This document shows positions 7,773 to 62,548 of a stretch of 64,000 bases of DNA, piece after piece. This DNA is from Arenibacter certesii DSM 19833. GTDB lineage: Bacteria > Bacteroidota > Bacteroidia > Flavobacteriales > Flavobacteriaceae. Location: contig NZ_AUCB01000013.1 in the NCBI RefSeq assembly GCF_000429545.1, forward strand, positions 1-64,000, in the 5' to 3' direction. How positions within the stretch are numbered: position 1 is the first letter of the stretch; every line of letters starts with the position of its first letter. The notes below the pieces were generated by a model. It was given only the letters and a program-made list of their open reading frames with translations, was not told the DNA's origin and searched no databases. The position numbers and the translations under genes are program-made.

Positions 7773-7815
7773 TGACAAATGTCACATATCAATACAACTA
7801 CCTTTTGTACCTTAG
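7773..7815 (+). promoter_or_regulatory. Candidate Crp/Fnr-activated promoter of dps
   Basis: TGACAAATGTCA (7773-7784) is the core of a larger perfect inverted repeat TGTGACAAATGTCACA (7771-7786). It is followed after 23 bp by TACCTTAG (7808-7815), one mismatch from the Bacteroidota -7 consensus TAnnTTTG. This puts the palindrome near -41.5 relative to the expected start at about 7821, leaving a roughly 105-nt leader before dps. The same layout recurs before ccoS, ccoI, the Crp/Fnr gene and the usp gene. Sites seen directly; regulator assignment inferred. Confidence 0.6.
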
Positions 7816-7926
7816 AGAATTGATGGAAATAAGATATTCTACAACGGTATTCCCACTAAAACTTGAAGCGAACTTCCACAGAAATCAACAGTTATTAAAA
7901 ACTAATTGAATACAAAATAATAGATT

Positions 7927-8406
7927 ATGGCGAACACAAATTTAAATGTTATTGGATTGAGCGAAAGCAGCTCTATTAAAACAGCAGAAAAGTTAAATGA
8001 ACTTCTAGCAAATTATCAAATGTTCTATATGAACCTACGAGGATTTCATTGGAATATTCAGGGAAAGAAATTCTTTGAACTTCACTTAAAATTTGAAGAG
8101 ATATACAATGATGCTTTGGTAAAAGTAGATGAGATTGCAGAAAGGATACTTACATTGGGGCAACCTCCTGTTCATTCCTATAAAAAATACTTGGAGCTTG
8201 CCGAAATAAAAGCAGCTGAAAATATTACTGATGGGGAAGTAGCTGTGGACAATATCCTTAAAGCATTGAAGATTTTACTGGAGCAGGAAAGAGCAATTTT
8301 AAAAATTGCAGCCGATGCAAATGATGAAGGTACCGTATCTTTAATGAGCGACTATATAGTAGAACAGGAAAAATTGGCTTGGATGCTTTCCGCTTATAGA
8401 AGTTAA
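7927..8406 (+). CDS. dps: Dps family ferroxidase/DNA-protection protein
   Basis: A 159-residue ferritin-like protein of normal Dps length. The family signature is present: NLRGFHWNIQGKKFFELH at about residues 36-53, followed by FEEIYNDALVKVDEIAERI with the acidic ferroxidase ligands. Dps forms a 12-subunit shell that oxidises Fe(II) with peroxide, stores iron and protects DNA. ATG at 7927 follows an A-rich leader. A strong palindromic operator lies about 140 bp upstream (7771-7786), suggesting control by a Crp/Fnr regulator, and a terminator follows at 8438, so it is probably monocistronic. Confidence 0.95.
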   Translation: MANTNLNVIGLSESSSIKTAEKLNELLANYQMFYMNLRGFHWNIQGKKFFELHLKFEEIYNDALVKVDEIAERILTLGQPPVHSYKKYLELAEIKAAENITDGEVAVDNILKALKILLEQERAILKIAADANDEGTVSLMSDYIVEQEKLAWMLSAYRS

Positions 8407-8437
8407 GACCATCATTAGATCAAAAATTTTGAAGGTA

Positions 8438-8466
8438 AAAAAACCATCCTTAGGGGTGGTTTTTTA
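8438..8466 (+). terminator. Rho-independent terminator of dps
   Basis: AAAAAACCA (8438-8446) pairs with TGGTTTTTT (8457-8465) around a short C/G-containing loop, ending in a T run. It lies 31 bp after the dps stop and before the next gene. Confidence 0.75.
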
Positions 8467-8516
8467 GTTTCCTTCTCACTATATCATCTTAATTTATAAC
8501 TGAAAGACATAATATT

Positions 8517-8819
8517 ATGGCAGTAATCATGTATGTAGATTTTCCACATAGAGAAGTTTGGGGAAAAGAAATGGCAAAACAAATGAACGAGCTTGCACAG
8601 AGTATTAATAATGAACCTGGTTTTATTTGGAAGTTTTGGACAGAAAATCAGGAAGAAGAAATGGCAGGAGGTGTTTATATGTTCGATACCCGTGAAAATG
8701 CAAAGAATTATCTTAGCATGCATACAGAACGATTGAAACAGTTTGGATACTCAGATATCAAAGGAAAGGTATTCGAGATTAACGAAGAGCTTTCTAAACT
8801 ATGCAAAGCTCCTATCTAA
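8517..8819 (+). CDS. YdhR-family putative monooxygenase
   Basis: The 100-residue protein aligns by eye over its full length with E. coli YdhR (PF08803, a ferredoxin-like dimeric alpha/beta barrel of about 101 residues). Shared features are an N-terminal beta strand, AKQMNELAQSINNEPGFIWK, FWTENQEEEMAGGVYMF, a second helix with YLSMHTERLKQFG, and KVFEINEELSKL. The family is classed as putative monooxygenases on structural grounds; the substrate is unknown. It is cytoplasmic, with no signal peptide. It follows dps by 110 bp but a terminator lies between them, so separate transcription is likely. Confidence 0.85.
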   Translation: MAVIMYVDFPHREVWGKEMAKQMNELAQSINNEPGFIWKFWTENQEEEMAGGVYMFDTRENAKNYLSMHTERLKQFGYSDIKGKVFEINEELSKLCKAPI

Positions 8820-8946
8820 GTTGATGTTGAACTTGTGCCAATGGCACATCTTGCCCATTTATAGTAGGTTGGGGGAAGGTTTGAGACTGTAGATAGATCT
8901 TTGCAGAAATTAATTTTAACGGGTGTAGCGAGTTCCCGAACTAATT

Positions 8947-9783
8947 TTATTCTTTGGAATTACGGCCGACTTTCTTATTAATCCGATCCATTTCTTTTAA
9001 TAAAAGTTGTAGGCCAGGATCGTGCATTTCTATATGTCCAAATCCTTGAATTTCCATCAACTGGGTTTCGGTATGGCCAGCCGTAGTCATTAATCGTTTT
9101 AAATATAGATTTTCTTCATATCTGCCTTCCAAATCAACTTCCCTATCTCCCGTAATAAGTAGTAAGGGTGGCGCATTCTTTCTAACGTGATAAAGGGGTG
9201 CATATTCGTCTACAATGACCTTTGACCAAGGTATTCCTCGTTCTTTTCTTATTGTAGAATGGGTTATGGTTTGTCCGCTTAAGGAAATAAGGCCTGCAAT
9301 ATTATCCGCATCGATTTTAAAATTTTGAAGCCATTGTTTATCCAAACCTATCATTTTCGCTAGGTACCCACCCGCGGAATGTCCTGCTACATATATTTTA
9401 TTGGGATTCCCTCCATAAGTTTTAATATTATTAAATACCCAAGCTACTGCTGCAGCGGCGTCCTCAATATAGGCCGGTGCATTAACTTTTGGAGATAACC
9501 GATAATTAACGCTTACAATGCACAGATTGTGGTTCAATAATGAATCTGGAAAATACTTGTCATAAGAATTCAGACCACCACCATGAAACCAAACTACCGT
9601 ATTAAAATCTTTAGTGTTTTCAGGGTATCGTATGTCTAATTTACAACGCGAAGTAATATACTCGTCTGTGTAAGTTGAATCGTAATAGGCAATCTCTAAT
9701 ACCTCTTTAAAAGCAGAATTATCTTGTGCAGTTACCAAAGATGTAAATAAAAGTATGGCGGAAATCAATAGTGCTTTTAGCAT
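8947..9783 (-). CDS. Exported alpha/beta-hydrolase (esterase/lipase-like)
   Basis: The 278-residue protein has an N-terminal signal peptide (MLKALLISAILLFTSLVTAQ) and an alpha/beta-hydrolase fold of the Abhydrolase_3/BD-FAE group. Visible motifs are the oxyanion-hole HGGG (67-70), the nucleophile elbow GHSAG with Ser136, the acid in GDREVDL (Asp213) and the base in GFGHIEMH (His250). It should hydrolyse an ester in the periplasm or outside; the substrate is unknown. I start at ATG 9783 because a TTG 60 bp upstream would place a polar stretch before the signal peptide. Confidence 0.88.
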   Translation of the reverse strand: MLKALLISAILLFTSLVTAQDNSAFKEVLEIAYYDSTYTDEYITSRCKLDIRYPENTKDFNTVVWFHGGGLNSYDKYFPDSLLNHNLCIVSVNYRLSPKVNAPAYIEDAAAAVAWVFNNIKTYGGNPNKIYVAGHSAGGYLAKMIGLDKQWLQNFKIDADNIAGLISLSGQTITHSTIRKERGIPWSKVIVDEYAPLYHVRKNAPPLLLITGDREVDLEGRYEENLYLKRLMTTAGHTETQLMEIQGFGHIEMHDPGLQLLLKEMDRINKKVGRNSKE

Positions 9784-9937
9784 GATGGTTGGTGTAGGTG
9801 GTTGGCTGTTTTGTAGATCCCTGATCTTATGGCTTCTATTCAAATATATCGATTTGTTTTTTAATCCGCCTCACCATGTCATGTATTCTTTGGGGCATGC
9901 TCCAATTAGAAGAGAATTGGTGCCTTTATTTGAGAAC

Positions 9938-9989
9938 AACATAAAGCACCCATTAATTAACAATTGTTAATTAATGGGTGCTTTATGTT
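9938..9989 (-). terminator. Perfect 52-bp palindrome, probable terminator
   Basis: The 52 bases are a perfect inverted repeat with 26-bp arms centred on CAATTG at 9963/9964; each arm runs AACATAAAGCACCC then ATTAATTAACAA. It lies 25 bp past the end of the leftward cytochrome-like gene. A stable hairpin on either strand is expected; terminating the leftward gene is the likely role, though the arms are far longer than typical and only a weak U tract follows on the minus strand. A smaller hairpin (CCAATT/AATTGG) sits at 9902-9920. Confidence 0.6.
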
Positions 9990-10014
9990 TTATTATCCTG
10001 TAATAAACTAGTTT

Positions 10015-10503
10015 TTATTTAGCAGCATCAAAATTCTGATTACTGTAAGGTGATAGATTGGGTATTTTCATTTCAACATATTCCATTTCCGTTGCGTGGT
10101 GACATTTGTTGCAGGTGTTTGTGAGATTGGTATAACTCTCTTTAAATTTTTCGAGATCTTTCTGATCAATAGCAATGTCTACACTATCTATCGCAGGATA
10201 TATCATTCCTATTAATTGAGTTTCCTTTCTATTGGGGTGGTACTCCTCAATAGCTTCAATAGCCTCCATTAATTCGTGCACTTCAAAGTCGGCAAGTTTC
10301 CAATTTTCATGCTGTCCTGCAAACCATAGTTTAGCATGATGCGTTTGTACAGTGCCCATAAAGTCTCCAAATCCAGGTCTGTAAGTATTGGCCAGTTTAA
10401 CTTCCAAACTGTCAATTCGGTTTTGTAAATCCTTATTGTTGGCCGTTTGTTGGTTGCAAGAAAATAGTCCTAAGGTCAATAGAATTAAAAATACTTGTCT
10501 CAT
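10015..10503 (-). CDS. Cytochrome c'-like heme lipoprotein
   Basis: A 162-residue protein with a lipoprotein signal ending at LFSC (Cys16), a predicted mostly helical body, and one heme c attachment motif CNKCH at residues 131-135 near the C-terminus. A late CxxCH in a small four-helix protein resembles cytochrome c'-type proteins, but similarity is by layout only. It should be a membrane-anchored periplasmic electron carrier or ligand-binding heme protein. It is monocistronic, with the 52-bp palindrome just downstream. Confidence 0.75.
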   Translation of the reverse strand: MRQVFLILLTLGLFSCNQQTANNKDLQNRIDSLEVKLANTYRPGFGDFMGTVQTHHAKLWFAGQHENWKLADFEVHELMEAIEAIEEYHPNRKETQLIGMIYPAIDSVDIAIDQKDLEKFKESYTNLTNTCNKCHHATEMEYVEMKIPNLSPYSNQNFDAAK

Positions 10504-10772
10504 TTTACTGTGTTTTCTGTTTTTATGGTGGTCATAAGAATCTGACTACCGTTAATACTTGTTGTATATACTCTTATTTCTCCTTTTACATGCTACACCT
10601 TTTCACATGTATTTAAAGAATTATAGTTTGAATAGTGTAACGTATTGTTATTTGGTTAGTTATGAGGGTAATCTGCAAATTTAACAAATTAAAACTGAAT
10701 TTGCATATTGGTACCTAGTAAGATGCTGTTTGGTCTAAAGGTGAGGAGGTTTGGGCTTGATGAATATTAACT

Positions 10773-11030
10773 TTAAAACTTAATCTTGCTAATCCAATTT
10801 CCTAGAAAGTAACATAATGTTAGATACCCAGTTAACAGTAAGCCTCCCAATACCCACCCTAGATTTCCCATGCTATAAACAAAACTAAAAATGTAGGTTT
10901 CCATACTTTCTATGGGTTTTAATGAAATCGAAATATTGTTAGGCTTAGATAAGAGGTCGATTATCAATATAAAAACAAGGTATCCAACTAATACACCGAT
11001 GCTTCCTGAAATTATTTTATTCTTTTTCAT
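10773..11030 (-). CDS. Small membrane protein of unknown function
   Basis: 85 residues with two clear hydrophobic segments (about 8-28 and 52-78) separated by a polar loop, and a basic C-terminus. ATG at 11030. No family recognised; length and hydrophobicity support a genuine inner-membrane protein. It is separated from both neighbours by about 100-270 bp and is likely transcribed alone. Confidence 0.55.
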   Translation of the reverse strand: MKKNKIISGSIGVLVGYLVFILIIDLLSKPNNISISLKPIESMETYIFSFVYSMGNLGWVLGGLLLTGYLTLCYFLGNWISKIKF

Positions 11031-11128
11031 ATAGTTTTTGTGTTACCCCCTCTGTACCTTTTGCCTACTTTAATCTAAAGAGATGGATTGGTAGTGGTTT
11101 GTTGAGTAGGTGGGCCTAGATAAATTTA

Positions 11129-11578
11129 TTATAATAAATCTTTTGCAAAGCAGAAGCTATCTGGAATGTCTTTTAAGGGACCGTAATTTGGAATGGGCAT
11201 ATACCCGTTTCGGTTATAAAGTGCGTTAGCTTCCGGTTGTTTAGATCCCATAAAGAGAAGGCATTTAGTGCTTCCTAATTCTTTGGACCAATTTTCTAAT
11301 TCGGATAAGATTTTTTCTCCAATTCTCTGTCTTCTAGCTATTGGAGAAACATACATCCTTTTTATTTCCATGGTGTTCAAATCATACTCTGAGATAGCGC
11401 CACAACCAATAGCCTTACCCTCTTTAACCGCTAAAACCACATGATTCAAGTTGCTTATTTTATTAAATTGAGATAGCGGATGAGTTTTTCCATCTCGTTG
11501 AGCAAGATCTGCATTGAGTAATTCCACTAGTTTTTTAAACTCGGTATTTTGAGAATCGGTTCTTTTTATCTCTATCAT
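11129..11578 (-). CDS. GNAT family N-acetyltransferase
   Basis: 149 residues from ATG 11578 (MIEIKRTDS). The GNAT fold is indicated by the strand VVLAVKEGKAIGCGAI, the strand EIKRMYVSP, the acetyl-CoA loop ARRQRIGEKIL, and the C-terminal ALYNRNGYMPIPNYG. It transfers an acetyl group from acetyl-CoA to an unknown amine. A TTG 45 bp further upstream would add an unconserved extension and is rejected as start. It lies in a leftward run with a methyltransferase 80 bp upstream. Confidence 0.85.
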   Translation of the reverse strand: MIEIKRTDSQNTEFKKLVELLNADLAQRDGKTHPLSQFNKISNLNHVVLAVKEGKAIGCGAISEYDLNTMEIKRMYVSPIARRQRIGEKILSELENWSKELGSTKCLLFMGSKQPEANALYNRNGYMPIPNYGPLKDIPDSFCFAKDLL

Positions 11579-11659
11579 AGTATTATATATACGCAAATGA
11601 TTTGGTAAAACAAAAGCAGCCACTTCTAGTTAAGTTTAATCAATGTAGTTATTGGGCAT

Positions 11660-12271
11660 TTAGTTCAATTGTCTCTTAAAACTACAAAACAAGAAATTCT
11701 GCGTTGTACCAAATGGAGTGGTGTGGTCCTCTGTAGCGCACTTTATTTTATCAAACCCATTTTTAAATTCTTTGGATAATTCTTCCTCATCGTATTGATT
11801 AATCTCGAGGCCACTGCATCTTTCAGGACCAGTTTTAGAAAATGTTCCTATCGTCAAGAATCCACTTACAGACTTTCTTGCAGTTTCTATATATTTTCTT
11901 TTCTGTTCAGGGCTTGTAAGAAAATGAAATGTAGCTCTATCGTGCCACAAATCAAAAGAAGTAGTGGGTTCAAATTCTGTAATGTCGCATACAATCCACT
12001 TTACTTTATTCGCTTTTTCTCTAAGTCGGGTTTTTGCTTTTTCTAGTGCCTTAGCAGAAATATCAAGTACAGTAATGTTTGTATATCCTTCATCAAGTAA
12101 GTAATCTACAAGCTCACTGTCTCCGCCACCTATATCTATTATTTTTGCTGATTTATTTAGTTCGAAGGAATGGATAATCTCAAGGGAAGTTTTTGGCATT
12201 TCTTGCGTCCAACTAACTTGGTCTGGATTTTTTGTGTTATAAACTGTTTCCCAATGTTTCTTTCTATTCAT
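11660..12271 (-). CDS. Class I SAM-dependent methyltransferase
   Basis: 203 residues with a Rossmann-type SAM-binding core: motif I KIIDIGGGDSELV (about 43-55), the acidic end of strand two in ITVLDIS, and the later strand FDLWHDRATFHFL. The N-terminus (HWETVYNTKNPDQVSWTQ) and the segment FSKTGPERCSGLEINQYD are typical of small-molecule methyltransferases annotated near tellurite/thiopurine-like enzymes; the substrate is not deducible. Cytosolic. ATG at 12271. Confidence 0.85.
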   Translation of the reverse strand: MNRKKHWETVYNTKNPDQVSWTQEMPKTSLEIIHSFELNKSAKIIDIGGGDSELVDYLLDEGYTNITVLDISAKALEKAKTRLREKANKVKWIVCDITEFEPTTSFDLWHDRATFHFLTSPEQKRKYIETARKSVSGFLTIGTFSKTGPERCSGLEINQYDEEELSKEFKNGFDKIKCATEDHTTPFGTTQNFLFCSFKRQLN

Positions 12272-12343
12272 TATTCGTTTCTCTTATAAAGCTTGTGACT
12301 AGCAGTTTATATCCTAGTAGTGTGTGAACTTCCACTTATTAAA

Positions 12344-12406: not shown

Positions 12407-12439
12407 AAGGTGTGGGTTGGTTATTTTATCTAAAATACG

Positions 12440-15862: not shown

Positions 15863-15887
15863 TCTTCAAAACTTTAAAACGCATAGG

Positions 15888-31087: not shown

Positions 31088-31789
31088 TTAATGGCATTCC
31101 ATAACACTAGATACGGTCTCCGTAATGGGGGCAGGAGAAATATAGGGTATTCCCAGCCCCATTCCCCTCAGTATAAAAAGAAGTCCGATCAACACTACAA
31201 ATACAGGTATCAATCGTTGTACGGATTGTTTGGCCTTGCCTTTTAGCATACTGCCAAAATATACGGCGGTGGTCATTAAGGGAATGGTTCCCAAACCAAA
31301 TAACATCATAAAAAGAGCGCCCAACCAAGGATTTGCAGTGGCAATACTAGCAAATACCGCCATGTAAACCAGACCGCAGGGTAAAAAACCATTTAGGAAG
31401 CCAATGGTTAGGAAGGTATCTGGACTTTTCTTTTTTAGTTCCTTGCCCATTTGGCTTTTTAATTTGGATAAGAGTCCATAGATAGGTTTGGAGAAATTAT
31501 ATTTATTAAAGGTTTTGTAAGGAACAAGAACTATAACGATCATTACTACCCCTATGATAATAGAGAGCTTTTGCTGTAATCCAAAAACATATAGGCCTTT
31601 TCCTAAAAAGCCAAATACCAAGCCTATAATACCGTAAGCAGCTAACCTCCCGAAATGGTACAGAAATACTTGCAACAGTTTTTTTCCTGGTCTTTGGTGA
31701 TCCACGGGTAGCATAAAGGCAATGGGTCCGCACATGCCTACGCAGTGAAAACTCCCCATTAATCCTAATAATACAGCAGTCGCCAGCAT
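31088..31789 (-). CDS. DsbD_2/TauE-like membrane protein, last gene of the cbb3 oxidase cluster
   Basis: 233 residues, six or so hydrophobic segments, with the N-terminal motif SFHCVGMCGPIAF typical of DsbD_2/CcdA-like proteins (PF13386, often annotated sulfite exporter TauE/SafE). The second half repeats the pattern with GFLNGFLPCGLVYMAVF. In this phylum such a gene regularly closes the cco cluster, and the conserved cysteines suggest thiol or copper handling for oxidase assembly; that is inferred from context. It starts 37 bp after ccoH and should be co-transcribed. Confidence 0.85.
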   Translation of the reverse strand: MLATAVLLGLMGSFHCVGMCGPIAFMLPVDHQRPGKKLLQVFLYHFGRLAAYGIIGLVFGFLGKGLYVFGLQQKLSIIIGVVMIVIVLVPYKTFNKYNFSKPIYGLLSKLKSQMGKELKKKSPDTFLTIGFLNGFLPCGLVYMAVFASIATANPWLGALFMMLFGLGTIPLMTTAVYFGSMLKGKAKQSVQRLIPVFVVLIGLLFILRGMGLGIPYISPAPITETVSSVMECH

Positions 31790-31826
31790 GGTTTATCTTT
31801 TTGGTAGTAGTTTGAAAATGATGTTT

Positions 31827-32273
31827 TTAATACGTTATTTTATCCTTGAACATATAAGCTTCGCCTTTGTACTCCCAGGAGACTTTAATGTTCCAACGAC
31901 CTGCTGGCAGACGTTTTTCAGGTATAAGTAGATTGTTGTTGGATAACGTTATAGGCAGGTCGAAATCCAATTGTTTGTCAGATGGTCTGTATAGGGTAAC
32001 TGTACCTGTTATGGTTGTTTGATCCAACTCTTTAGGGAACTCTAATCGCAGACCTTCCGAGGTACTTACCAGTTTTAAGTCCACATTGTTTTTGTGCGAA
32101 TTTATTTCAGCATCCAATTCCTTTTGAAATCCCATCTCCGCCTGGTAGTAATCTTCCCGGACAAGATCATGATTGGTCCTATCGTCCATTAGCATACTTA
32201 CTACAAAGAATAGGATAAAACTTATAAATCCTATAAATGCCAGTACTATTCCAGTTCCCCAATTAATTTTCAT
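31827..32273 (-). CDS. ccoH: FixH/CcoH family cbb3 oxidase assembly protein
   Basis: 148 residues with one N-terminal transmembrane helix (about 6-28) and a periplasmic beta-rich domain typical of FixH (PF05751): MDDRTNHDLVREDYYQAEMG, LDLPITLSNN-type strands and GRWNIKVSWEYKGEAYMF. CcoH stabilises assembly of the cbb3 oxidase. It lies 80 bp downstream of ccoG and 37 bp before the DsbD_2-like gene, all leftward. Confidence 0.88.
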   Translation of the reverse strand: MKINWGTGIVLAFIGFISFILFFVVSMLMDDRTNHDLVREDYYQAEMGFQKELDAEINSHKNNVDLKLVSTSEGLRLEFPKELDQTTITGTVTLYRPSDKQLDFDLPITLSNNNLLIPEKRLPAGRWNIKVSWEYKGEAYMFKDKITY

Positions 32274-32353
32274 ATTCTAATTTTTAGGTCTTGCTCCCAA
32301 ATGGTTGGGAGATATTTGTTTATTTAGTTCTTAGATAATCACCTCCTGCTTAT

Positions 32354-33772
32354 TTACCTGTAGCTTCTTGGAGCCATAAATCTTGCTGAGGTAGTCTCAA
32401 TTTGTTCTTCTCCGCTAAATACCCCAATTTTCACCGTGTTTTTATCACCGTCTAATGCGGCATTATTTATTTCTATAAACAAGGTCCCTTCGGTTAGCTC
32501 TTGTGCAGGAACGGTAAAATTATCATTTCTAACGAGTGATATAGTTCCTTTATGTGACAATAACTTAAAGGTAACATCGGGTATGTCCCTAGTCGTTTTA
32601 TTGACCACCTTAAAGGTGTATACGTTACTGATGATATTACCCTCCTTATGCTCATACAACTGTCCGGGTAATCGCAATATATTGGCCTCTAAGTCATTTC
32701 TTAAAAATAGCATCCCAATTAATATACCAGTAAGGATAATCAGTACTGCAGTGTAACCTTTAAGTCTGGGTGTAAACTTAAATTTGGCTTTTTTCTCAAT
32801 ATTATCTTCACTAGCGTATCGTATAAGGCCTTTAGGCAGGTCTACCTTCTCCATTATCTCGTCACAGGCATCAATACATGCAGTACAATTAATACACTCT
32901 AATTGAGTCCCGTTTCTGATGTCTATTCCGGTAGGACAAACGTTTACACATTGGAAACAATCTATACAATCACCGTGCCCAATTGCTGCTCGATCTTCTC
33001 CTTTTCTGAATTTTTTTCTTCCCTTCTCTGCTTCTCCACGTTTATGGTCATAGGCTACAACGATGGATTTATTGTCTAATAATACTCCTTGCATGCGGCC
33101 ATATGGGCATGCAATTATGCAGACTTGTTCCCTAAACCATGCAAATACAAAATAAAATACGCCTGTAAAGATCAAGAGAGAGACCATGGTGCTAAGATGT
33201 TGCATTGGTCCATCTGCGATATATTTAATAAGTCTATCGCTACCTATAAGATAAGCGAGAAATACATTGGCTATTATAAAGGAGATTATAAAAAAGATGA
33301 ACCATTTAAGAACTCGTTTTCTAATTTTCTCTGCGTTCCACTCTTGTTTGTCCAACCGTATCTGTGCTCCTCGGTCCCCATCAATCCAATATTCTATCCG
33401 TCTGAAAACCATCTCCATAAAAATAGTCTGAGGACATAGCCAGCCGCAGAAAATACGCCCAAAGGCAACGGTAAACAGGGCAATAAATACTACCCCTATG
33501 ATCATTGAGATTACAAAAAGGTAAAAATCCTGTGGCCAGAAAGGAAATCCAAAAATATTGAACCTGCGCTCTAGTACATTGAACATTAAAAACTGGTTCC
33601 CATTTATTTTTAAAAATGGGGCAAGTAATAAAAATGTTAATAGAAAATAACTTACATATTTTCTGTATTTGTAGAAGCGGCCTTTGGGTTTTTTTGGAAA
33701 TACCCATGCCCTTTTCCCCTCTTCATTTATTGTCCCTATGGAATCCCTGAAATTATTTTGCTCCTGTGCCAT
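32354..33772 (-). CDS. ccoG: Cytochrome c oxidase accessory protein CcoG (FixG/RdxA)
   Basis: 472 residues with about five membrane helices, an early CGWLCPQTIFME motif, and two 4Fe-4S ferredoxin motifs: CIDCFQCVNVCPTG and CINCTACIDACDE. A C-terminal immunoglobulin-like periplasmic domain ends the protein (FixG_C). CcoG is a cupric reductase that supplies Cu(I) for the oxidase. A 206-bp gap separates it from ccoP, longer than elsewhere in the cluster, so an internal promoter is possible. Confidence 0.95.
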   Translation of the reverse strand: MAQEQNNFRDSIGTINEEGKRAWVFPKKPKGRFYKYRKYVSYFLLTFLLLAPFLKINGNQFLMFNVLERRFNIFGFPFWPQDFYLFVISMIIGVVFIALFTVAFGRIFCGWLCPQTIFMEMVFRRIEYWIDGDRGAQIRLDKQEWNAEKIRKRVLKWFIFFIISFIIANVFLAYLIGSDRLIKYIADGPMQHLSTMVSLLIFTGVFYFVFAWFREQVCIIACPYGRMQGVLLDNKSIVVAYDHKRGEAEKGRKKFRKGEDRAAIGHGDCIDCFQCVNVCPTGIDIRNGTQLECINCTACIDACDEIMEKVDLPKGLIRYASEDNIEKKAKFKFTPRLKGYTAVLIILTGILIGMLFLRNDLEANILRLPGQLYEHKEGNIISNVYTFKVVNKTTRDIPDVTFKLLSHKGTISLVRNDNFTVPAQELTEGTLFIEINNAALDGDKNTVKIGVFSGEEQIETTSARFMAPRSYR

Positions 33773-33978
33773 CTTTGTAATACTGTATTGTGCTAGTGGA
33801 TATTATTGCAATCCGGTTTTAAATTCCACTCTTAGTACTTAACTGCACATCAAACTATAATAAGTGCTAGAGATTACCATGTTTAAATTTTAAACCAGTC
33901 TTAAACCTATCCATTTTCTAATATAGCTATGCAGATTATTTATATTTGCAATACTAAACTCAAGATCGGTAATGGTAT

Positions 33979-34860
33979 TTAATTGTCCGCTTTCCAAATT
34001 TCCCCCTCTGGTTCTTTCGGATTGGCCGGAGTTGTACCGGTCAATTCGGTAAGGATGTAACTAGATACTTGGGCCATTTCAAGTGGTTTAAGCATTTGCT
34101 TCCAAGCTACCATTCCTTTACCAGCGCGACCTCCTTCGGAAACGGTATGGAAAACATCTTTAATGTCCCCACCTAGGATCCAATATTCATCCGTTAAGTT
34201 TGGGCCAATACCCCCACCGCCATCTGGCATATGACAAGCAACGCAATTGGCAGTGTAGATTGCTTCTCCCGCTTTTATATCCGCAGCATCGGTTAGTAAT
34301 TCTACTGTATTGACATCTACCAATCCCTTGGCCGTTTTCTTATACTCCTCTATTTCCACTTGAGCCTCTGCAACGGCTCTTTCATACTCCATATCCTGAG
34401 TGTCCCCACCAAACACATGGTATCGGGCCATGTAGACTATGGCGAAAACAATGGACGCATAAAATAGGTAAACCCACCATGGCGGAAGATTGTTGTCCAA
34501 TTCTTGGATGCCATCGTAGTTGTGGTCCAAGATAATTTCGTGTTCCTCTTCAATAGTTTTTTCCCCAATCATCTTCTCTCTAAGTCGCGCTATCCAATTG
34601 GTCCCTCTTTTGGAGGTTTTGGTTTCCAAATAGCGCTCCTTGGCCTCAGGAGATAAGGTTTGGAACATAACATTTTCTATGGTCCTTAAAATAAGCTCAA
34701 TTCCAATTAATAAAAATAGGACTACCCCCATAAATACGAATAGGATGGGATGTTCCAAAACGGCCGGTAAGCCATCCGTTTCTACGAAGTATTCCATTAA
34801 TCCGAAGATTAGAAAGAAAACTAGCGGAATTCTAATCCGCCAAAGTGTGGTATTTTTCAT
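33979..34860 (-). CDS. ccoP: cbb3 oxidase subunit III (CcoP), mono-heme form
   Basis: 293 residues. Two N-terminal hydrophobic stretches (about 10-25 and 38-58), a CcoP_N segment with the conserved NNLPPWWVYLFYASIVFA helix at about 123-142, then one cytochrome c domain with CVACH (206-210) and GPNLTDEYW. Proteobacterial CcoP carries two hemes; only one CxxCH is present here, as is usual in Bacteroidota. It passes electrons from the bc complex to CcoO/CcoN. ATG at 34860. Confidence 0.93.
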   Translation of the reverse strand: MKNTTLWRIRIPLVFFLIFGLMEYFVETDGLPAVLEHPILFVFMGVVLFLLIGIELILRTIENVMFQTLSPEAKERYLETKTSKRGTNWIARLREKMIGEKTIEEEHEIILDHNYDGIQELDNNLPPWWVYLFYASIVFAIVYMARYHVFGGDTQDMEYERAVAEAQVEIEEYKKTAKGLVDVNTVELLTDAADIKAGEAIYTANCVACHMPDGGGGIGPNLTDEYWILGGDIKDVFHTVSEGGRAGKGMVAWKQMLKPLEMAQVSSYILTELTGTTPANPKEPEGEIWKADN

Positions 34861-35141: not shown

Positions 35142-37340
35142 TTAGTTTTGAGAAATCTCCTCGTTCGTATCCTTAATTTTTATATCGGTTCCCAGGCGCT
35201 GTAGGTAGGCGATCATAGCTACAATCTCCCGATCTTTCATTTCTATAAAATTCTCTCCATTTTCTTCAGCATATTTTTTATCTGCTTCATAGCTCGCTGC
35301 AAAATCGGGATCGGTATATAGGTTTTTCTCTATTTGGGCTGCCTGTTGGTCCATAAGTTCAAAGGCATTAGCAACTTCTTCTTCGGAGTAGGGTACGCCC
35401 AAGGTGATCATAGCTTCCATTTTTTTCTGAATATTACTCCTGTCGTGTTCGTCCCTAATTAACCATGCATATGCAGGCATAATAGATCCGGAGGAGGTTG
35501 TTTGTGGATCATACATATGGTTAAAGTGCCAGCTGTCGGAATATTTACCTCCCACTCGTAATAAGTCTGGCCCAGTACGTTTACTACCCCATAAGAATGG
35601 GTGGTCGTAAACAAATTCCCCAGCTTTGGAATATTCCCCATAACGCTCCACTTCACTTCGGAAAGGCCTTACCATTTGGGAGTGACAGCTTACACAACCT
35701 TCCCTAATATATAGGTCCCTTCCTTCCAATTCTAATGGGGTGTACGGTTTTACACTAGAGATGGTAGGAATATTGGATTTTACTAATATGGTAGGTACAA
35801 TCTGTACAATGCCACCAATTAATATCGCTATGGTAGCCAAGATGGTTAACTGAATAGGCTTACGCTCCAACCATGTGTGGAAAGTCTCGCCTGCAGTTCT
35901 TTTCTTGGAAACTCGGGTTAGGGCCGGGGCCTCTGCAAGCTCGTCTTCTACTTCGCTCCCTGATTTTACGGTTACCACTAAGTTGTAGATCATTACAAGG
36001 GCTCCAGCTATGTACATACTACCACCAATAGCACGCATCCAATACATTGGGATGATTTGGGTTACCGTTTCCAAGAAGTTTCCATATACCAAGGTGCCAT
36101 CGGGGTTAAATTCTTTCCACATTAAAGCTTGTGTAAAGCCAGCGACATACATTGGTAAGGCATATAATATAATGCCCAAGGTGCCAATCCAAAAGTGAAA
36201 GTTGGCCAAGGGTACGGAATGCAACCTAGTTTTAAACATTCTAGGAACTAACCAATAAATCATTCCAAAGGCCAAAAATCCGTTCCATGCCAAAGCTCCT
36301 ACGTGAACGTGAGCAATAATCCAATCGCTAAAGTGAGCAATAGCATTAACGTTCTTTAAGGATAACATGGGGCCCTCAAATGTAGCCATCCCGTATCCGG
36401 TAATAGCGACCACCATAAATTTTAAAACAGGATCTGTCCTTACTTTATCCCATGCCCCCCTTAGGGTTAAAAGACCGTTGATCATACCACCCCAAGATGG
36501 TGCTAGCAACATTATAGAGAAGGCTACCCCTAAATTTTGTGCCCAATCTGGTAAGGAGGAATATAAAAGGTGGTGAGGTCCTGCCCAGATATAAATAAAT
36601 ATCAACGACCAAAAGTGAACAATAGATAACCTATACGAATAGACTGGCCTGTTTGCGGCCTTTGGGACAAAATAATACATTAAACCTAAGAAAGGTGTGG
36701 TTAGGAAGAATGCCACAGCATTATGTCCATACCACCACTGTACTAAGGCATCTTGCACCCCAGCGTAGACAGAATAACTCTTAAAAGCACTTACAGGAAT
36801 AGATAAGCTATTAAATATATGTAGTACAGCAACAGTTACAAAGGTGGCGAGATAGAACCAGATGGCAACATATAAGTGACGCTGCCTTCTTTTTAGCATG
36901 GTCCCGATGAGGTTCCAACCAAAGGCGACCCAGACAATTGTAATGGCAATATCTATAGGCCACTCTAGTTCTGCATATTCTTTAGTGGAGGTATAACCCA
37001 ATGGCAAGGTAATAGCGGCTGCTACTATAATTGCCTGCCAACCCCAAAAGTTTAATTTACTTAATGCATCGCTATACATTCTAGCCTTTAACAGGCGCTG
37101 TGTGGAATAATATACCCCCGCAAAAATGGCATTGCCCACAAACGCAAAAATAACGGCGTTGGTATGTAAGGGGCGTAATCGCCCAAAACTTAACCACGGT
37201 ATACCATCGGTAATGTTTGGGAAAAGAAACATAAGAGCGAGCAGAAGCCCGACAGACATTCCTACTATTCCCCAAAACAGCGTAGCATAAATGAATTTTT
37301 TTACGATTTTATTATCGTAATAGAACTGCTGTACTTCCAT
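35142..37340 (-). CDS. ccoNO: cbb3 oxidase fused subunits I and II (CcoN-CcoO)
   Basis: 732 residues. Residues 1-470 are the 12-helix heme-copper catalytic subunit CcoN, with heme and CuB histidine segments LRPLHTNAVIFAF, WWYGHNAVAFFL, WAGPHHLLYSSLP and FSDWIIAHVHVGALAWN. After a linker and one helix (about 497-520) comes CcoO, a membrane-anchored cytochrome c with CVSCH at 549-553 and TGPDLLRVGGKYSDSWH. The fusion of ccoN and ccoO in one frame is the standard Bacteroidota form. The enzyme reduces O2 at low concentration and pumps protons. It begins 2 bp after ccoS. Confidence 0.97.
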   Translation of the reverse strand: MEVQQFYYDNKIVKKFIYATLFWGIVGMSVGLLLALMFLFPNITDGIPWLSFGRLRPLHTNAVIFAFVGNAIFAGVYYSTQRLLKARMYSDALSKLNFWGWQAIIVAAAITLPLGYTSTKEYAELEWPIDIAITIVWVAFGWNLIGTMLKRRQRHLYVAIWFYLATFVTVAVLHIFNSLSIPVSAFKSYSVYAGVQDALVQWWYGHNAVAFFLTTPFLGLMYYFVPKAANRPVYSYRLSIVHFWSLIFIYIWAGPHHLLYSSLPDWAQNLGVAFSIMLLAPSWGGMINGLLTLRGAWDKVRTDPVLKFMVVAITGYGMATFEGPMLSLKNVNAIAHFSDWIIAHVHVGALAWNGFLAFGMIYWLVPRMFKTRLHSVPLANFHFWIGTLGIILYALPMYVAGFTQALMWKEFNPDGTLVYGNFLETVTQIIPMYWMRAIGGSMYIAGALVMIYNLVVTVKSGSEVEDELAEAPALTRVSKKRTAGETFHTWLERKPIQLTILATIAILIGGIVQIVPTILVKSNIPTISSVKPYTPLELEGRDLYIREGCVSCHSQMVRPFRSEVERYGEYSKAGEFVYDHPFLWGSKRTGPDLLRVGGKYSDSWHFNHMYDPQTTSSGSIMPAYAWLIRDEHDRSNIQKKMEAMITLGVPYSEEEVANAFELMDQQAAQIEKNLYTDPDFAASYEADKKYAEENGENFIEMKDREIVAMIAYLQRLGTDIKIKDTNEEISQN

Positions 37341-59131: not shown

Positions 59132-59155
59132 ACCTGTCTCGATATAATATGATGT

Positions 59156-61534
59156 TTAACTATCTAATTTTCTCCCCAATAGATTGGTAGCTATTGTAGT
59201 AAACGCTACAATGCTAATAGAGCTCAATGGCATTAGAATAGCTGCAATAACGGGTTGTAACTGACCAGTAACAGCAAAATATAGTCCTATCACATTATAC
59301 ATCAAGGAAAGTAAGAAACTCAGTTTAATTATTTTAATGGCTTTCCTTGAGGCAAGGATATATTGATACAGGTATTTAAAATTCTTAGCATCCAAAATAC
59401 CATCGCAGGCTGGGGAAAATACATTTACATTCTCCGATATTGCTATTCCTACTTCGGCTTGTGCCAATGCTCCCGCATCGTTCAGGCCATCGCCAACCAT
59501 TAAAACCTTTTTATTCTGTTCCTGTAATTCGCTTATAAAAGCTAACTTATTTTCCGGTTTCTGGTTAAAGTACATTGCTGTCCCTTGTGGCAATAATTTG
59601 TTAAGGGTGGCTTTTTCCCCATCGTTGTCTCCAGAAAGTAGGGCCAGCTCCAGATCGGAGGACATATCCTGGAATATTTCTTTTACCCCGTCCCTATAAT
59701 GGTTCTGAAAGATGTATCGCCCTTTGTACTCATCGTTGGAGCTGATATGTACAGCAGTTTTTTCCGTAGGATTGGGCTGTGAATTGCCTACAAATGTTGC
59801 AGATCCTACCCTTATTTTGTTCTCGGCCGTACCCCCTGTTATACCGTGACCTAGTTGCTCCTCATACTCCGCCAAGGTAATTATATCGTGGTCTGCCAAA
59901 AGTTCATATAGCTTTCTGCTCAAAGGATGGTTAGAGGAGCGTAGTGTGTTTTTTAAGAGGGACTCTTCTTCTAAGGTGAGCTCCATTCCTTCGTATTCTA
60001 CCTTACTGTCAGCGGCGGTGGTAATGGTTCCCGTTTTATCAAAAATTCCAGTGTCTATCTGTGCCAGTTTTTCTATGGTGTTACTATCCTTTAAGTAAAA
60101 CTTATGGCGTCCGAATAATCGCAGCATATTCCCTAAAGTAAATGGGGCTGCTAAAGCAATGGCACAGGGACACGCTATAATAAGTACCGCAGTAAATACA
60201 TTTATTACTTTACTAGGGTCTAAAAACATCCAAATTATAGAAGAAACAAAAGCAATAGTCAAAACAGCAATAGTAAATCGCTTGCCAATGCCGTCTGTCA
60301 TAGTTTTAAAGCTGTTGGACCTGTCGTCTTGGAAAACAGCATTGCTCCACAATTGGGTGAGGTAACTTTGTGAAACAGATTTTACCGTTTCAAGTTCTAT
60401 GGCACTGCCCAATTGTTTTCCTCCGGCAAAAATTTTATCCCCAGAATTTTTAAGTACCGGCTCGGACTCTCCAGTAACAAAACTATAATCTATTTTTGCA
60501 TTTTCACTAATCAATATAGCATCAACAGGGATGATCTCCCCGCTGCGTATAAGGAGTCGGTCCCCTTTTTCTATATCATAGACCTGTACGTTTTCTTCTT
60601 TATTGTCCTTAGAGATCCTAGTAATAGCAATAGGGAAATAGGACTTATAATCGCGCTCAAAAGAGAGGTAGGAATAAGTTTTTTGTTGAAAGAACTTACC
60701 TAAGAGTAAGAAAAACACCAAGCCGGTAAGGCTGTCGAAAAATCCAGAACCCCAATCAAAAATAATTTCAACGGTGCTCCTAATAAAAAGTACAAGAATC
60801 CCTAAGGCTATAGGAACATCAAGATTTAAATACCTAGACCGCAGTCCTTTATATGCGGAAATAAAAAAGTCTTGTCCGGAGTAAAAAACTACGGGCAGCG
60901 AAAATGCGAACATTACCCATCTAAAGACCACCTTAAACTGTTCCAACCAGTACTCCCCTACATCAAAATATTCGGGAAAGGAAAGGAACATGACATTACC
61001 AAAAGCAAAGCCTGCTATTCCTAATTTGTAGATTAAACTTCTATCTTTTCCCTTTTTATCATTATCAAAATCCTTTAGGGAAATATAGGGCTCATACCCA
61101 ATCCTAGCCAATAGAATTACAAGGTCTTTTAACGAGGTTTTATCCGAATTATAATTGATCCTCACTGTTTTTTCTGGGAAGTCTACCTGAGAGCTTGAAA
61201 TTCCTGGGGATAACTTATTAAGGTTTTCTAAAATCCAAATACAAGAGCTGCAATGGATATGCGGAATCTGTAAGTTTACAATTTGAAGGCCATTGTCGCT
61301 AAACTCGATGAATTTTTCCTGTATTTTTTCGGATTCCAGAAAGTCGAACTTCCCCTCAATTTCGTTGGGAGTAGACCCTGCGGCCGATTGTAAGTCGTAA
61401 TAATAGGATAGATCATTGCTAGAGAATATCTCATAGACGGTTTTACAGCCATTACAGCAAAAACTTCTTTCATCATAGTTTATTGTAGTATTTCCACAAA
61501 CATCACCACAATGGTAACAAGTTAGCACATCCAT
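59156..61534 (-). CDS. ccoI: cbb3-associated copper P-type ATPase CcoI/FixI
   Basis: 792 residues: an N-terminal cysteine-rich metal-binding region (CYHCGDVC, CCNGC), an HMA domain with HIHCSSCIW (Cys95, Cys98), eight membrane helices, the TGES actuator loop (354-357), CPC (455-457) and the phosphorylation loop DKTGT (Asp499), with GDGLNDAGAL near the C-terminus. This CcoI-type ATPase exports Cu needed to build the cbb3 centre. In many relatives it directly precedes ccoS; here it is separated from ccoS by 21.6 kb and is divergent from the Crp/Fnr gene, sharing a palindrome with it. Confidence 0.94.
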   Translation of the reverse strand: MDVLTCYHCGDVCGNTTINYDERSFCCNGCKTVYEIFSSNDLSYYYDLQSAAGSTPNEIEGKFDFLESEKIQEKFIEFSDNGLQIVNLQIPHIHCSSCIWILENLNKLSPGISSSQVDFPEKTVRINYNSDKTSLKDLVILLARIGYEPYISLKDFDNDKKGKDRSLIYKLGIAGFAFGNVMFLSFPEYFDVGEYWLEQFKVVFRWVMFAFSLPVVFYSGQDFFISAYKGLRSRYLNLDVPIALGILVLFIRSTVEIIFDWGSGFFDSLTGLVFFLLLGKFFQQKTYSYLSFERDYKSYFPIAITRISKDNKEENVQVYDIEKGDRLLIRSGEIIPVDAILISENAKIDYSFVTGESEPVLKNSGDKIFAGGKQLGSAIELETVKSVSQSYLTQLWSNAVFQDDRSNSFKTMTDGIGKRFTIAVLTIAFVSSIIWMFLDPSKVINVFTAVLIIACPCAIALAAPFTLGNMLRLFGRHKFYLKDSNTIEKLAQIDTGIFDKTGTITTAADSKVEYEGMELTLEEESLLKNTLRSSNHPLSRKLYELLADHDIITLAEYEEQLGHGITGGTAENKIRVGSATFVGNSQPNPTEKTAVHISSNDEYKGRYIFQNHYRDGVKEIFQDMSSDLELALLSGDNDGEKATLNKLLPQGTAMYFNQKPENKLAFISELQEQNKKVLMVGDGLNDAGALAQAEVGIAISENVNVFSPACDGILDAKNFKYLYQYILASRKAIKIIKLSFLLSLMYNVIGLYFAVTGQLQPVIAAILMPLSSISIVAFTTIATNLLGRKLDS

Positions 61535-61559
61535 ATCATATTTACTTTATACGCATCTG

Positions 61560-61602
61560 CAAAGATGGTTGCCATGATCTTTTCAAAACATGACAATTGT
61601 CA
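61560..61602 (-). promoter_or_regulatory. Candidate Crp/Fnr-activated promoter of ccoI
   Basis: The perfect palindrome TGACAATTGTCA (61591-61602) is followed leftward after 23 bp by CATCTTTG (61567-61560), one mismatch to TAnnTTTG. The predicted start is about 61554, 20 bp before the ccoI ATG. The palindrome is shared with the divergent regulator gene. Confidence 0.5.
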
Positions 61603-61632
61603 GTTCATCCTATTTTATAAACTTTAATTTTG
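61591..61632 (+). promoter_or_regulatory. Candidate autoregulated promoter of the Crp/Fnr gene
   Basis: The same TGACAATTGTCA palindrome lies 22 bp before TAATTTTG (61625-61632), a perfect match to the TAnnTTTG -7 consensus. With a start at about 61638 the palindrome centre falls at -41.5, the class II Crp/Fnr activator position. The leader to ATG 61659 is about 20 nt. Confidence 0.6.
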
Positions 61633-61658
61633 CAATGTCAGGTTAAAACTTAGTGCAT

Positions 61659-62345
61659 ATGAGCAGATGTGAAAATTGTATTATTCGCCAGTTTAATTCC
61701 CTGCGTGCTATGAGCAAGGAGGAATTAAAAAGAGTCTCGGATACTAAAACGACCAAAATACTTAAAAAAGGAGAAATAATCTTTGAAGAAGGAGAAAAGC
61801 TAAACGGAGTATTTTGCGTTCGTGGCGGGGTTTCCAAGCTTTCTAAATTGAGCTCCAATGGGAAAGATCAAATTGTGAAATTGGCAACCAAAGGGGCTGT
61901 ATTGGGGCAGCGATCTGTAATTTCCGAGGAAGTAGCCAACCTTAGCGCTACTGCTGTAAATGATATGGAGGTCTGTTTTATTCCTAAAGATGCTATTGTA
62001 GATACATTAAATAGTAATCCTAATTTTGCCGTTGAGGTATTACGACATATGGCACACGATTTAAAAGAGGCAGATGACGTTATCGTAAATATGTCCCAGA
62101 AAACGGTAAAACAAAGGGTTGCCGAAGCTTTTATTTACCTAGAAGATAATTTTGGAGTTGATGATAAAGGCTATTTAGCCCTTACCCTTTCTAGAGAAGA
62201 TATTGCTAATGTGGTAGGAACAGCAACCGAATCAGCGATCAGGATTATCTCTGAATTTAAAAAGTTAGGCCTTATTAAAGCTTCTGGCAAAAAAATAGCC
62301 ATTGTAGATGCTAAAGGACTAGCGGATCTTGCCGTAGGGATATAA
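61659..62345 (+). CDS. Crp/Fnr-family transcription regulator, Fnr-like
   Basis: 228 residues from ATG 61659; a GTG two codons upstream is the alternative. An N-terminal CxxC (Cys4, Cys7) and two more cysteines (Cys53, Cys106) could ligate an iron-sulfur cluster, as in Fnr, though spacing differs from E. coli. A cyclic-nucleotide-binding-type barrel spans about 25-120, followed by the dimer helix and an HTH_Crp domain (LTLSREDIANVVGTATESAI, then RIISEFKKLGLI). In the recognition helix the Glu and Arg that contact the TGA half-site in Crp and Fnr are kept (E..IR). Divergence from ccoI, and the boxes before dps, ccoS and usp, suggest an oxygen or redox regulator of micro-oxic respiration. Confidence 0.9.
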   Translation: MSRCENCIIRQFNSLRAMSKEELKRVSDTKTTKILKKGEIIFEEGEKLNGVFCVRGGVSKLSKLSSNGKDQIVKLATKGAVLGQRSVISEEVANLSATAVNDMEVCFIPKDAIVDTLNSNPNFAVEVLRHMAHDLKEADDVIVNMSQKTVKQRVAEAFIYLEDNFGVDDKGYLALTLSREDIANVVGTATESAIRIISEFKKLGLIKASGKKIAIVDAKGLADLAVGI

Positions 62346-62505
62346 GCGGTTGAAATTACTTCCATAATTTTAATTTCTTCTACCAAGTTTCCTTCCAACG
62401 GATTAGACTTGTTAGAGCTCCTTATTTTCTTTAGTTCCTATAGTTGTGGTAGTGAATTTTTTACGACCCACTATTCTAGCAATCAGCCATCATCCCTATT
62501 CAATA

Positions 62506-62548
62506 TGATAAAAGTCATAGATTCAGCTAGGTGGTTCCATTAATTTTA
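62506..62548 (+). promoter_or_regulatory. Candidate Crp/Fnr-activated promoter of the usp gene
   Basis: TGATAAAAGTCA (62506-62517), one mismatch to TGAC-N4-GTCA, lies 23 bp before TAATTTTA (62541-62548), one mismatch to TAnnTTTG. The expected start is about 62554, 43 bp before the gene. Confidence 0.5.

Follow-up and report, generated by a model that had tools for sequence, protein, structure and literature searches.

A candidate oxygen-limitation regulon under a variant Fnr-like regulator in Arenibacter certesii

In the marine bacterium Arenibacter certesii DSM 19833, the genes ccoI, fnr, ccoS-ccoNOP and usp likely form an oxygen-limitation regulon under a class II Fnr-like regulator with a labile iron-sulphur cluster, a reading to which we assign a probability of roughly 70%. 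Four features computed here point to it: a fixed spacing between regulator box and promoter element, its evolutionary conservation, the coherent functions of the target genes, and the invariant cysteines of the regulator.

Five composite promoters in one genomic window

The window analyzed, i.e., the whole stretch of 64,000 nucleotides, covers positions 1-64,000 (forward strand) of contig NZ_AUCB01000013.1 in assembly GCF_000429545.1. A first-pass annotation had described five boxes, each 22-23 bp before a -7 octamer, and all five are indeed in place (Table 1). The TAnnTTTG element of Bacteroidota primary promoters is exact at fnr, ends in TTTA at usp and ccoS, reads CATCTTTG at ccoI, and is poor at dps. 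The ccoP-like gene, ccoG, and the FixH and DsbD_2 genes (31088-34860, minus strand) are presumed to be the remainder of the cbb3 cluster in a single operon, while the ccoI-like identity of the P-type ATPase also draws on its position, adjoining fnr and the cbb3 genes. Transcription of fnr is predicted to start at ~61637.

Table 1. Composite promoters and associated genes in the window.
Feature	Positions	Strand	Remarks
dps box TGACAAATGTCA	7773-7784	+	doubtful member; contained in TGTGACAAATGTCACA
dps -7-like octamer TACCTTAG	7808-7815	+	gap 23; weak; 111 bp from dps ATG
dps-like ferritin gene	7927-8406	+	profile matches
DsbD_2 gene	31088-31789	-	cbb3 cluster
FixH gene	31827-32273	-	cbb3 cluster
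ccoG	32354-33772	-	cbb3 cluster
ccoP-like gene	33979-34860	-	cbb3 cluster
ccoNO fusion, cbb3 oxidase subunits I/II	35142-37340	-	NF011053 1360 bits, cut-off 1080
ccoS, FixS family, 69 aa	37343-37552	-	PF03597 66.4 bits, cut-off 23.1; first gene of cbb3 oxidase cluster
ccoS -7 octamer TAGTTTTA	37579-37572	-	gap 23
ccoS-ccoNOP box TGAGAAATGTCA	37614-37603	-	TGAG half-site departs from consensus
ccoI-like copper/heavy-metal P-type ATPase	59156-61534	-	TIGR01525 325.6 bits, below curated cut-off 346.25; TIGR01511 295.2
ccoI -7 octamer CATCTTTG	61567-61560	-	gap 23 from box 61602-61591
ccoI/fnr box TGACAATTGTCA	61591-61602	both	one box for ccoI (-) and fnr (+)
fnr -7 octamer TAATTTTG	61625-61632	+	gap 22; exact TAnnTTTG
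Crp/Fnr-family regulator (fnr)	61659-62345	+	228 aa from ATG; Cys 4, 7, 53, 106; recognition helix TESAIR
usp box TGATAAAAGTCA	62506-62517	+	box of usp promoter
usp -7 octamer TAATTTTA	62541-62548	+	gap 23
universal stress protein gene (usp)	62597-63508	+	PF00582; start codon probably TTG

Spacing, not the box alone, exceeds chance

Selection bias had been raised as a concern from the outset, and for the box alone it was justified. Boxes with at most one mismatch occurred 11 times in the window vs 13.5 expected; perfect boxes numbered 2 vs 0.24 expected there, a count reached in 2 of 100 shuffles, and were not enriched genome-wide (28 sites vs 31 for the reversed pattern). The box alone was dropped as evidence, being enriched neither in the window at this tolerance nor in the genome. 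For the composite of box, spacer and octamer, on the other hand, the concern does not stand: set against controls, as the first-pass annotation had suggested, TGAYN4RTCA-N22/23-TAnnTTTG was found 14 times vs 0 in this genome and 300 times vs 8 across the 18 genomes of the genus (its own included), TGACN4GTCA-N18-26-TAnnTTTR 8 times vs 0, and the gap-23 pattern with at most one mismatch 33 times vs 2. Same-strand ORFs of at least 50 aa started at -10 to 350 bp from 21 of 24 composites, 14 of them within 50 bp, these stretches having been chosen for holding matches and the rate being uncontrolled. Annotation covered part of the gap-23 matches with at most one mismatch, and the matches on C26 and C57 (duplicated sequence within an ORF), C4:16391, C9, C11 and C41 resembled background.

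The spacing itself is sharply defined. Among 61 pairs of TGAYN4RTCA and TAnnTTTR with gaps of 8-38 bp in this genome, 22 lie exactly 23 bp apart, on a background of ~1.2 pairs per gap at gaps other than 22 and 23 (Poisson P ~2e-20). Across 80 related loci, which are not independent, 217 pairs had this gap vs 47 over 40 other gaps. With the -7 element numbered T-12 to G-5, as in the accessible part of PMC6847099, a 23 bp gap would place the box at -47 to -36. Its predicted centre, -41.5, is the site position of class II activators and agrees with the earlier estimate of about -41.5.

A matrix built from other genomes of the genus gave the top five scores in the 64 kb to precisely these five promoters (29.7, 21.8, 19.8, 17.6 and 17.4); the next match that was not an offset reading of the five scored 7.8, and 60 Markov-simulated windows held a mean of 0.2 matches scoring at least 14. 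Training drew on five genomes (G001-G005), from which 71 of the 300 matches found were taken, leaving 44 composites once near-duplicates and fnr promoters had been removed; one fnr-orthologue promoter (G003) stayed in the set, which could only raise the fnr score. It is vanishingly improbable that the five-promoter pattern is a coincidence sharpened by the reader's selection: the unenriched box would fit such an account, but the spacing peak, the matrix on independent genomes and the footprints contradict it.

The consensus first proposed, TGAC-N4-GTCA, kept its palindromic form and N4 centre but was revised to MTGAY-N4-RTCAK. The outer base before the box is A or C, a T preceding it in 2 of the 58 gap-23 matches examined, and an outer A follows it in 1 of these 58. 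Separately, relatives keep a CAGGTA motif just 3' of the octamer at fnr, ccoI and ccoS; it is not general (0 of 25 composites listed), and the fnr promoter of the window reads CAGGTT.

Conservation of the composite promoters

Four of the five promoters are widely kept. Of the 70 related loci having ccoI adjacent to fnr, 69 carried the ccoI composite, and no composite was found there in the ten loci where the two are not adjacent. On the fnr side, 60 of 80 related loci carry a composite, 58 of them at gap 23 (in this genome the gap is 22, not 23), and the other 20 have none scoring at least 14; in 61 of the 80, ccoI and fnr sides share a single box. A usp composite followed by a usp-like gene was seen in 77 of the 78 related loci reaching far enough, and the ccoS composite in 18/18 genomes of the genus, always at gap 23 and with a perfect TGAYN4RTCA in 15. 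Across 198 genomes of the class, 829 composites were found vs 41 for the control. Their mean number per genome rose from 0.85 in the 27 genomes without a Crp/Fnr match to 5.8 in the 92 with one at E <= 1e-36, although genome size (Spearman 0.40) and phylogeny both confound this trend. Composites were present in 14 of the 27 genomes without a detected regulator relative, including five in G037, and 6 of the 92 with a strong relative held none.

The regulon as first drawn, joining oxidase, copper pump, iron storage, stress protein and the regulator's own gene, is retained for ccoS, ccoI, usp and fnr but not for dps. The dps composite occurs in this genome and in one other whose Dps is 99% identical, and is absent from the 16 others of the genus. 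The bases flanking its box extend it to TGTGAN6TCACA, and among the 58 gap-23 matches examined a G precedes in 5 and a C follows in none. With its presence in 2/18 genomes, poor octamer and deviant outer bases, dps was rejected as an unproven member and probably lies outside the regulon. Its box likely belongs to some other regulator of the Crp type, or is a chance match, as suggested by the G before and C after it in TGTGACAAATGTCACA and by the composite's restriction to two genomes; the gap of 23 and the fifth matrix rank in the window speak against this, and the dps genes of 15 other genomes, being 33-56% identical, may not be orthologues. An E. coli-type CRP regulon at TGTGAN6TCACA was also considered and discarded, its sites being at chance level (2 in the genome vs 1 control).

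A variant of the Fnr-type regulator

The regulator belongs to the Crp/Fnr superfamily as defined by a cNMP_binding beta-roll (PF00027, 62.3 bits, cut-off 27.5) followed by HTH_Crp_2 (PF13545, 55.5 bits, cut-off 27), and scores 107.9 bits against the curated Fnr model NF008365 (cut-off 228). Cys 4, 7, 53 and 106 are invariant in 110/110 sequences, i.e., 81/81 orthologues and the best 29 more distant homologues, as are E191, I194 and R195 in the same set; the recognition helix thus keeps its Glu and Arg as the first-pass annotation had noted. FNR ligates its cluster through C20, C23, C29 and C122 and recognizes DNA with E209, S212 and R213. In the alignment, C4, C7 and C106 stand opposite C20, C23 and C122, while Asn13 occupies the place of C29 (Asn in 81/81 orthologues) and Ile194, in all 110 sequences, the position that we take to be that of Ser212 in E. 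coli numbering, so that the Glu-Ser-Arg triad of FNR is not preserved. The motif CxxCx5C was found in 0/81 orthologues and 0/29 distant homologues; another third N-terminal Cys, CxxCx8C, occurs in 18 of the 29 distant homologues and 0 of the 81 orthologues. An AlphaFold model of moderate quality (pLDDT 71.6, pTM 0.49) shows no cluster; its strand order (50-56, 103-109), read with the usual jelly-roll topology, would put Cys53 and Cys106 on neighbouring strands. The assignment as Fnr therefore holds for an Fnr-like protein with the helix Glu and Arg, but a variant one rather than canonical, lacking a C29 equivalent, with Ile for Ser212 and below the NF008365 cut-off.

Like FnrL of alphaproteobacteria and the FNR proteins of E. 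coli and A. fischeri, this system combines a Crp/Fnr fold, cysteines matching three FNR ligands, a helix with Glu and Arg, a palindrome with N4 centre and a class II position (predicted here). It differs from FNR in the missing C29 and Ser212, the extra invariant Cys53, and a promoter core of TAnnTTTG. Its sites are not TTGAT-N4-ATCAA: the core TGAY-N4-RTCA is common to both, whereas the outer T is avoided in favor of A or C. The best solved relative, 2gau of P. gingivalis (E 2.9e-24, residues 21-221), aligns only from beyond the CxxC onward, with no Cys opposite either Cys53 or Cys106. HcpR, DNR and NnrR are likewise Crp/Fnr proteins with TTGAY-N4-RTCAA-like boxes, whose outer T is unlike the sites here, and Bacteroides/Porphyromonas HcpR2 is reported to recognize GTAAC-N4-GTTAC with regulons of hcp genes only (accessible part of PMC1274295). 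MalR-like Crp/Fnr homologues of Flavobacteriales, of the same phylum and superfamily, are predicted carbon sensors; the accessible part of that work, which used a Bacteroides MalR matrix, holds no oxygen regulon or gap-23 promoter (PMC8510549). Judging by titles and abstracts of the papers listed in searches of an open-access, full-text collection of journal articles, we recognized none on an Fnr (oxygen-limitation) regulon or its binding site in Bacteroidota.

Wider targets and alternative regulators

Across the genome, composite promoters precede hemN (TIGR00538, 435 bits, cut-off 325), the alternate F1F0 ATPase beta gene (TIGR03305, 810 bits, cut-off 752), a cytochrome c gene, and 11 of 21 usp ORFs, the commonest target class; nirK (TIGR02376) and a pta-like gene have sites with one imperfect half-site. 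Together, hemN, the alternate F1F0 ATPase, cytochrome c and many usp genes would be the set expected of an oxygen-limitation regulator. The alphaproteobacterial FNR core set, according to the accessible part of PMC2908626, includes a heavy-metal P-type ATPase, usp, fnr and an oxygen-independent heme-synthesis enzyme; it shares with this system cbb3, the metal P-type ATPase, usp, hemN and the regulator's own gene, as well as an fnr location near the cbb3 genes.

A regulator sensing nitric oxide or nitrite instead, as do DNR or NnrR, appears quite improbable. The gap-23 site of nirK (C35:14585) and the FNR-like boxes of DNR (PMC1274295, accessible part) would suit it, but one half of the nirK site is bad (C at position 9 of the box), oxygen is the better match for hemN, cbb3, ccoI and usp, and the four invariant cysteines would suit an iron-sulphur sensor.

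A somewhat less remote, though still unlikely, alternative is that the boxes are read mainly by two receiver-Crp fusions (C6 and C21; Response_reg, cNMP_binding and HTH_Crp_2 domains) under two-component control, the Fnr-like protein reading few or none. Their helices, ATETLIRT and ATESLIRT, resemble ATESAIRI of the Fnr-like protein, each fusion directly adjoins a usp gene whose promoter is a composite, and usp is the most frequent target class. Against this, the best-kept composites are those at fnr itself, at ccoI and at the usp gene 3' of fnr, and the target set suits an oxygen sensor. With their common recognition helix, the two fusions could bind the same boxes; co-occurrence assigned no single site to a single paralogue, and control may be shared.

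Proposed mechanism and implications

For the favored reading, oxygen-limitation control by the Fnr-like protein, we infer from these sequence features that a dimer of this protein would bind MTGAY-N4-RTCAK centred at -41.5 and activate transcription from the predicted start sites. In this class II arrangement, the regulator would aid the primary RNA polymerase of Bacteroidota at promoters that have a TAnnTTTG -7 element but no good -33 element, including that of its own gene, and low oxygen would be sensed through a labile iron-sulphur cluster on Cys4, Cys7, Cys106 and probably Cys53.

More tentatively, and with the odds somewhat against it, this may represent an Fnr type found throughout the Bacteroidia, in which the cluster sits on the N-terminal CxxC and on beta-roll Cys 53 and 106 of neighbouring strands, half-sites are MTGAY rather than TTGAT because Ile replaces Ser212, and the distance to TAnnTTTG is a rigid 23 bp. 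Receiver-Crp fusions controlled by phosphorylation would use its boxes too, and the same promoters would thereby receive both oxygen and two-component signals.

If correct, low-oxygen gene control could be read from sequence as a box, 23 bp and an octamer in a phylum that is dominant in coastal seas, in soils and in guts, with a ready list of targets. It would also provide a clean test of how a Crp/Fnr activator, placed at a rigid distance, contacts the unusual polymerase of Bacteroidota, and the new cysteine arrangement would be a candidate for iron-sulphur sensing.

Spacing of the box and the –7 octamer

Five boxes and octamers, before dps, ccoS, ccoI, fnr and usp, were located in the window exactly where the first-pass annotation had placed them. 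That annotation had read them as a TGAC-N4-GTCA box at a fixed distance from a –7 element, and had itself raised the question of selection bias, which we evaluated in the source genome (4.99 Mb, 83 contigs). The box alone was not enriched: perfect TGACN4GTCA occurred at 28 sites in the genome versus 31 for the reversed pattern, and one-mismatch boxes gave 11 matches in the window versus 13.5 expected. The box with its spacing was: pairs of TGAYN4RTCA and a downstream TAnnTTTR, 8–38 bp apart, numbered 61 versus 22 for the reversed control. Gaps of exactly 23 bp accounted for 22 of these pairs and 22 bp for 4, the remaining 29 gaps together holding 35 (~1.2 per gap; Poisson P ~2e-20 for the excess at 23 bp against this background). 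Allowing one mismatch, the gap-23 pattern was detected 33 times versus 2 for the control, and TAnnTTTG at a gap of 22 or 23 bp 14 times versus 0 in this genome and 300 versus 8 across 18 genomes of the genus.

Class II activators are centered at –41.5. In the available text on Flavobacterium johnsoniae, the –7 element is near-invariant at T-12, A-11, T-8, T-7, T-6, and G-5, and a strong –33 element was not seen (PMC6847099). Arithmetic from this numbering predicts a box from –47 to –36 at gap 23, i.e., centered at –41.5, in agreement with the class II position suggested in the first-pass annotation.

As a test independent of the first-pass selection, we scored the window with a matrix trained on 44 non-redundant gap-23 composites (box, gap, and octamer) from five other genomes of the genus, derived from 71 matches with fnr promoters filtered out, except one that the filter missed. 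Because the search demanded an exact TAnnTTTG, training lacked orthologues of ccoI (CATCTTTG), ccoS (TTTA), and usp (TTTA) that have the window form of the octamer. The five promoters ranked 1–5 in the 64 kb; the next match, offset readings of the five aside, scored 7.8, and 60 Markov-simulated windows averaged 0.2 matches of ≥14.

Promoters of the putative regulon and other features (L, locus; C, contig; G000, source genome)
Feature	Location	Gap (bp)	Matrix score
dps promoter		23	17.4
ccoS promoter		23	17.6
ccoI promoter		23	21.8
fnr promoter		22	29.7
usp promoter		23	19.8
fnr gene, ATG at 61659	61659..62345 (+)		
CAGGTA motif sites	61633-61650; L024-L103; L236-L253		
Receiver-Crp fusion adjoining usp	C6:15469-15669 (L174)		
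Receiver-Crp fusion adjoining usp	C21:50854-51054 (L176)		
Cluster of usp genes	G000:C25:10752-41332 (L157, L158)		
CcoN/CcoO-like gene pair	G000:C1:250205-252068		

Conservation and membership

Among the best 80 related loci, all from Flavobacteriaceae, composites scoring ≥14 were found on the fnr side in 60 and on the ccoI side in 69, with a single box common to both sides in 61. The ccoI-side composite was present at 69 of the 70 loci where ccoI adjoins fnr, and at none of the 10 where it does not (L035, L045, L048, L049, L055, L066, L071, L074, L081, and L092). Downstream of fnr, 77 of the 78 loci that extend far enough carried a composite, in 77/77 cases ≤400 bp from the start of a Usp-like gene. 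All boxes considered, 217 octamers lay at gap 23 versus 47 at 40 other gaps (5–45), counts that are not independent because the loci have shared ancestry. At ccoS, all 18 genomes of the genus have the composite at gap 23; its box matches TGAYN4RTCA perfectly in 15 of them, and the window's TGAG recurs in 2 others. Many relatives have a conserved CAGGTA motif directly 3′ of the octamer in their fnr, ccoI, and ccoS promoters; at other targets it is not conserved.

Across 58 gap-23 matches (23 from this genome, 35 from loci of other genomes), the base preceding the box was A in 27, C in 24, G in 5, and T in 2, and the following base T in 49, G in 8, A in 1, and C in 0. The consensus thus becomes MTGAY-N4-RTCAK rather than the TGAC-N4-GTCA of the first-pass annotation. 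CRP sites carry G at the outer position (TGTGA). The outer M also differs from the outer T of the FNR box (TTGAT-N4-ATCAA; PMC2908626) and of HcpR and DNR boxes (PMC1274295), as given in the portions of these sources available.

The dps site, TGTGACAAATGTCACA, deviates in its outer bases; sites of this type number only 2 in the genome, versus 1 for the control. Of the 18 genomes, only 2 have the composite: the source genome and G009, which encodes a 99% identical Dps. In the other 18 dps loci searched, the top matrix score was 5.7, although most dps genes there are 52–56% identical and may be paralogues. Thus fnr, ccoI, ccoS, and usp stand as members, while dps probably does not belong to the regulon. 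Dps-like genes vary strongly within the genus (33–82% identity to that of the window; G002-G017, L258-L275), which suggests several paralogues or exchange.

Targets, signal and distribution

Composites also precede hemN (oxygen-independent coproporphyrinogen oxidase) and first genes encoding an alternate F1F0 ATPase beta subunit, a cytochrome c, an outer membrane efflux protein, an MlaE permease, a DUF302 protein, a thioredoxin-like protein, an acyl-CoA dehydrogenase, and several universal stress proteins. Where one half-site is imperfect, the genes that follow are nirK (copper nitrite reductase), a YceI gene, and a pta-like gene truncated by the end of its locus. The 25 Usp domain matches in the genome merged into 21 ORFs, 11 with an upstream composite of ≥17. 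Five composite-bearing usp genes are clustered on C25 with two ABC/HlyD export modules, a DUF302 gene, and the alternate F1F0 ATPase, and composites are likewise densely grouped on single contigs in other genomes of the genus. A second gene pair, on C1, is ~32–36% identical to CcoN and CcoO (one stop codon was read through in the search) and occurs in 3 other genomes of the genus.

In 198 genomes of the class, we counted 829 composites versus 41 for the control. The mean was 0.85 in 27 genomes without a detected regulator relative and 5.8 in 92 with E ≤ 1e-36; still, composites were present in 14 of the 27 and missing from 6 of the 92. Composite count was correlated with the strength of the best match (Spearman 0.46), match number (0.51), and genome size (0.40), class statistics that ignore relatedness. 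Among the papers matched in our full-text searches, we recognized none that describes this Bacteroidota Fnr-type regulon; Crp/Fnr homologues of Flavobacteriales are predicted to sense carbon in the available text of PMC8510549.

The regulator

Five proteins in the genome exceed the HTH_Crp_2 family cut-off. Two of these lack the Glu of the recognition helix (TTRAVLNR and TSRVVVSR), and two others, encoded on C6 and C21, are receiver-cNMP-HTH fusions with helices (ATETLIRT and ATESLIRT) like that of the Fnr-like protein (ATESAIRI). Since these fusions also directly adjoin composite-bearing usp genes, shared or split control of the boxes by them and the Fnr-like protein is a serious alternative to control by the latter alone. 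Long frames of this kind (355–388 aa) recur in numerous genomes of the class.

The Fnr-like protein, a Crp/Fnr family member of 228 residues, is 100% identical over those 228 residues to its counterpart in Arenibacter latericius DSM 15913, and the source was accordingly taken to be that species or one very close to it. Its Cys4, Cys7, and Cys106 align with C20, C23, and C122 of A. fischeri FNR (E. coli numbering), whereas Asn13 replaces C29 and Cys53 is additional. The four Cys and E191, I194, and R195 are identical in 81/81 orthologues and in the 29/29 best-scoring distant homologues retrieved class-wide, so that the Glu and Arg ascribed to the recognition helix are invariant. An extra Cys forming a CxxCx8C motif occurs in 18/29 distant homologues versus 0/81 orthologues, and cluster ligands may therefore differ between branches. 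A moderate-quality AlphaFold model (pLDDT 71.6, pTM 0.49) has Cys53 in strand 50–56 and Cys106 in strand 103–109, presumably neighbors in the jelly-roll topology. We infer that the protein is an Fe-S sensor whose fourth ligand departs from that of FNR. The proposed regulon is real; its Fnr-like protein lacks several of the features that define FNR proper and is better described as a variant belonging to Bacteroidota.

The regulon behaves like that of FNR. Target classes that it has in common with the alphaproteobacterial FNR core list, as given in the available portion of PMC2908626, are cbb3 oxidase, metal P-type ATPase, usp, fnr itself, and the synthesis of heme without oxygen, and this coherence is the main ground for proposing oxygen limitation as the signal.
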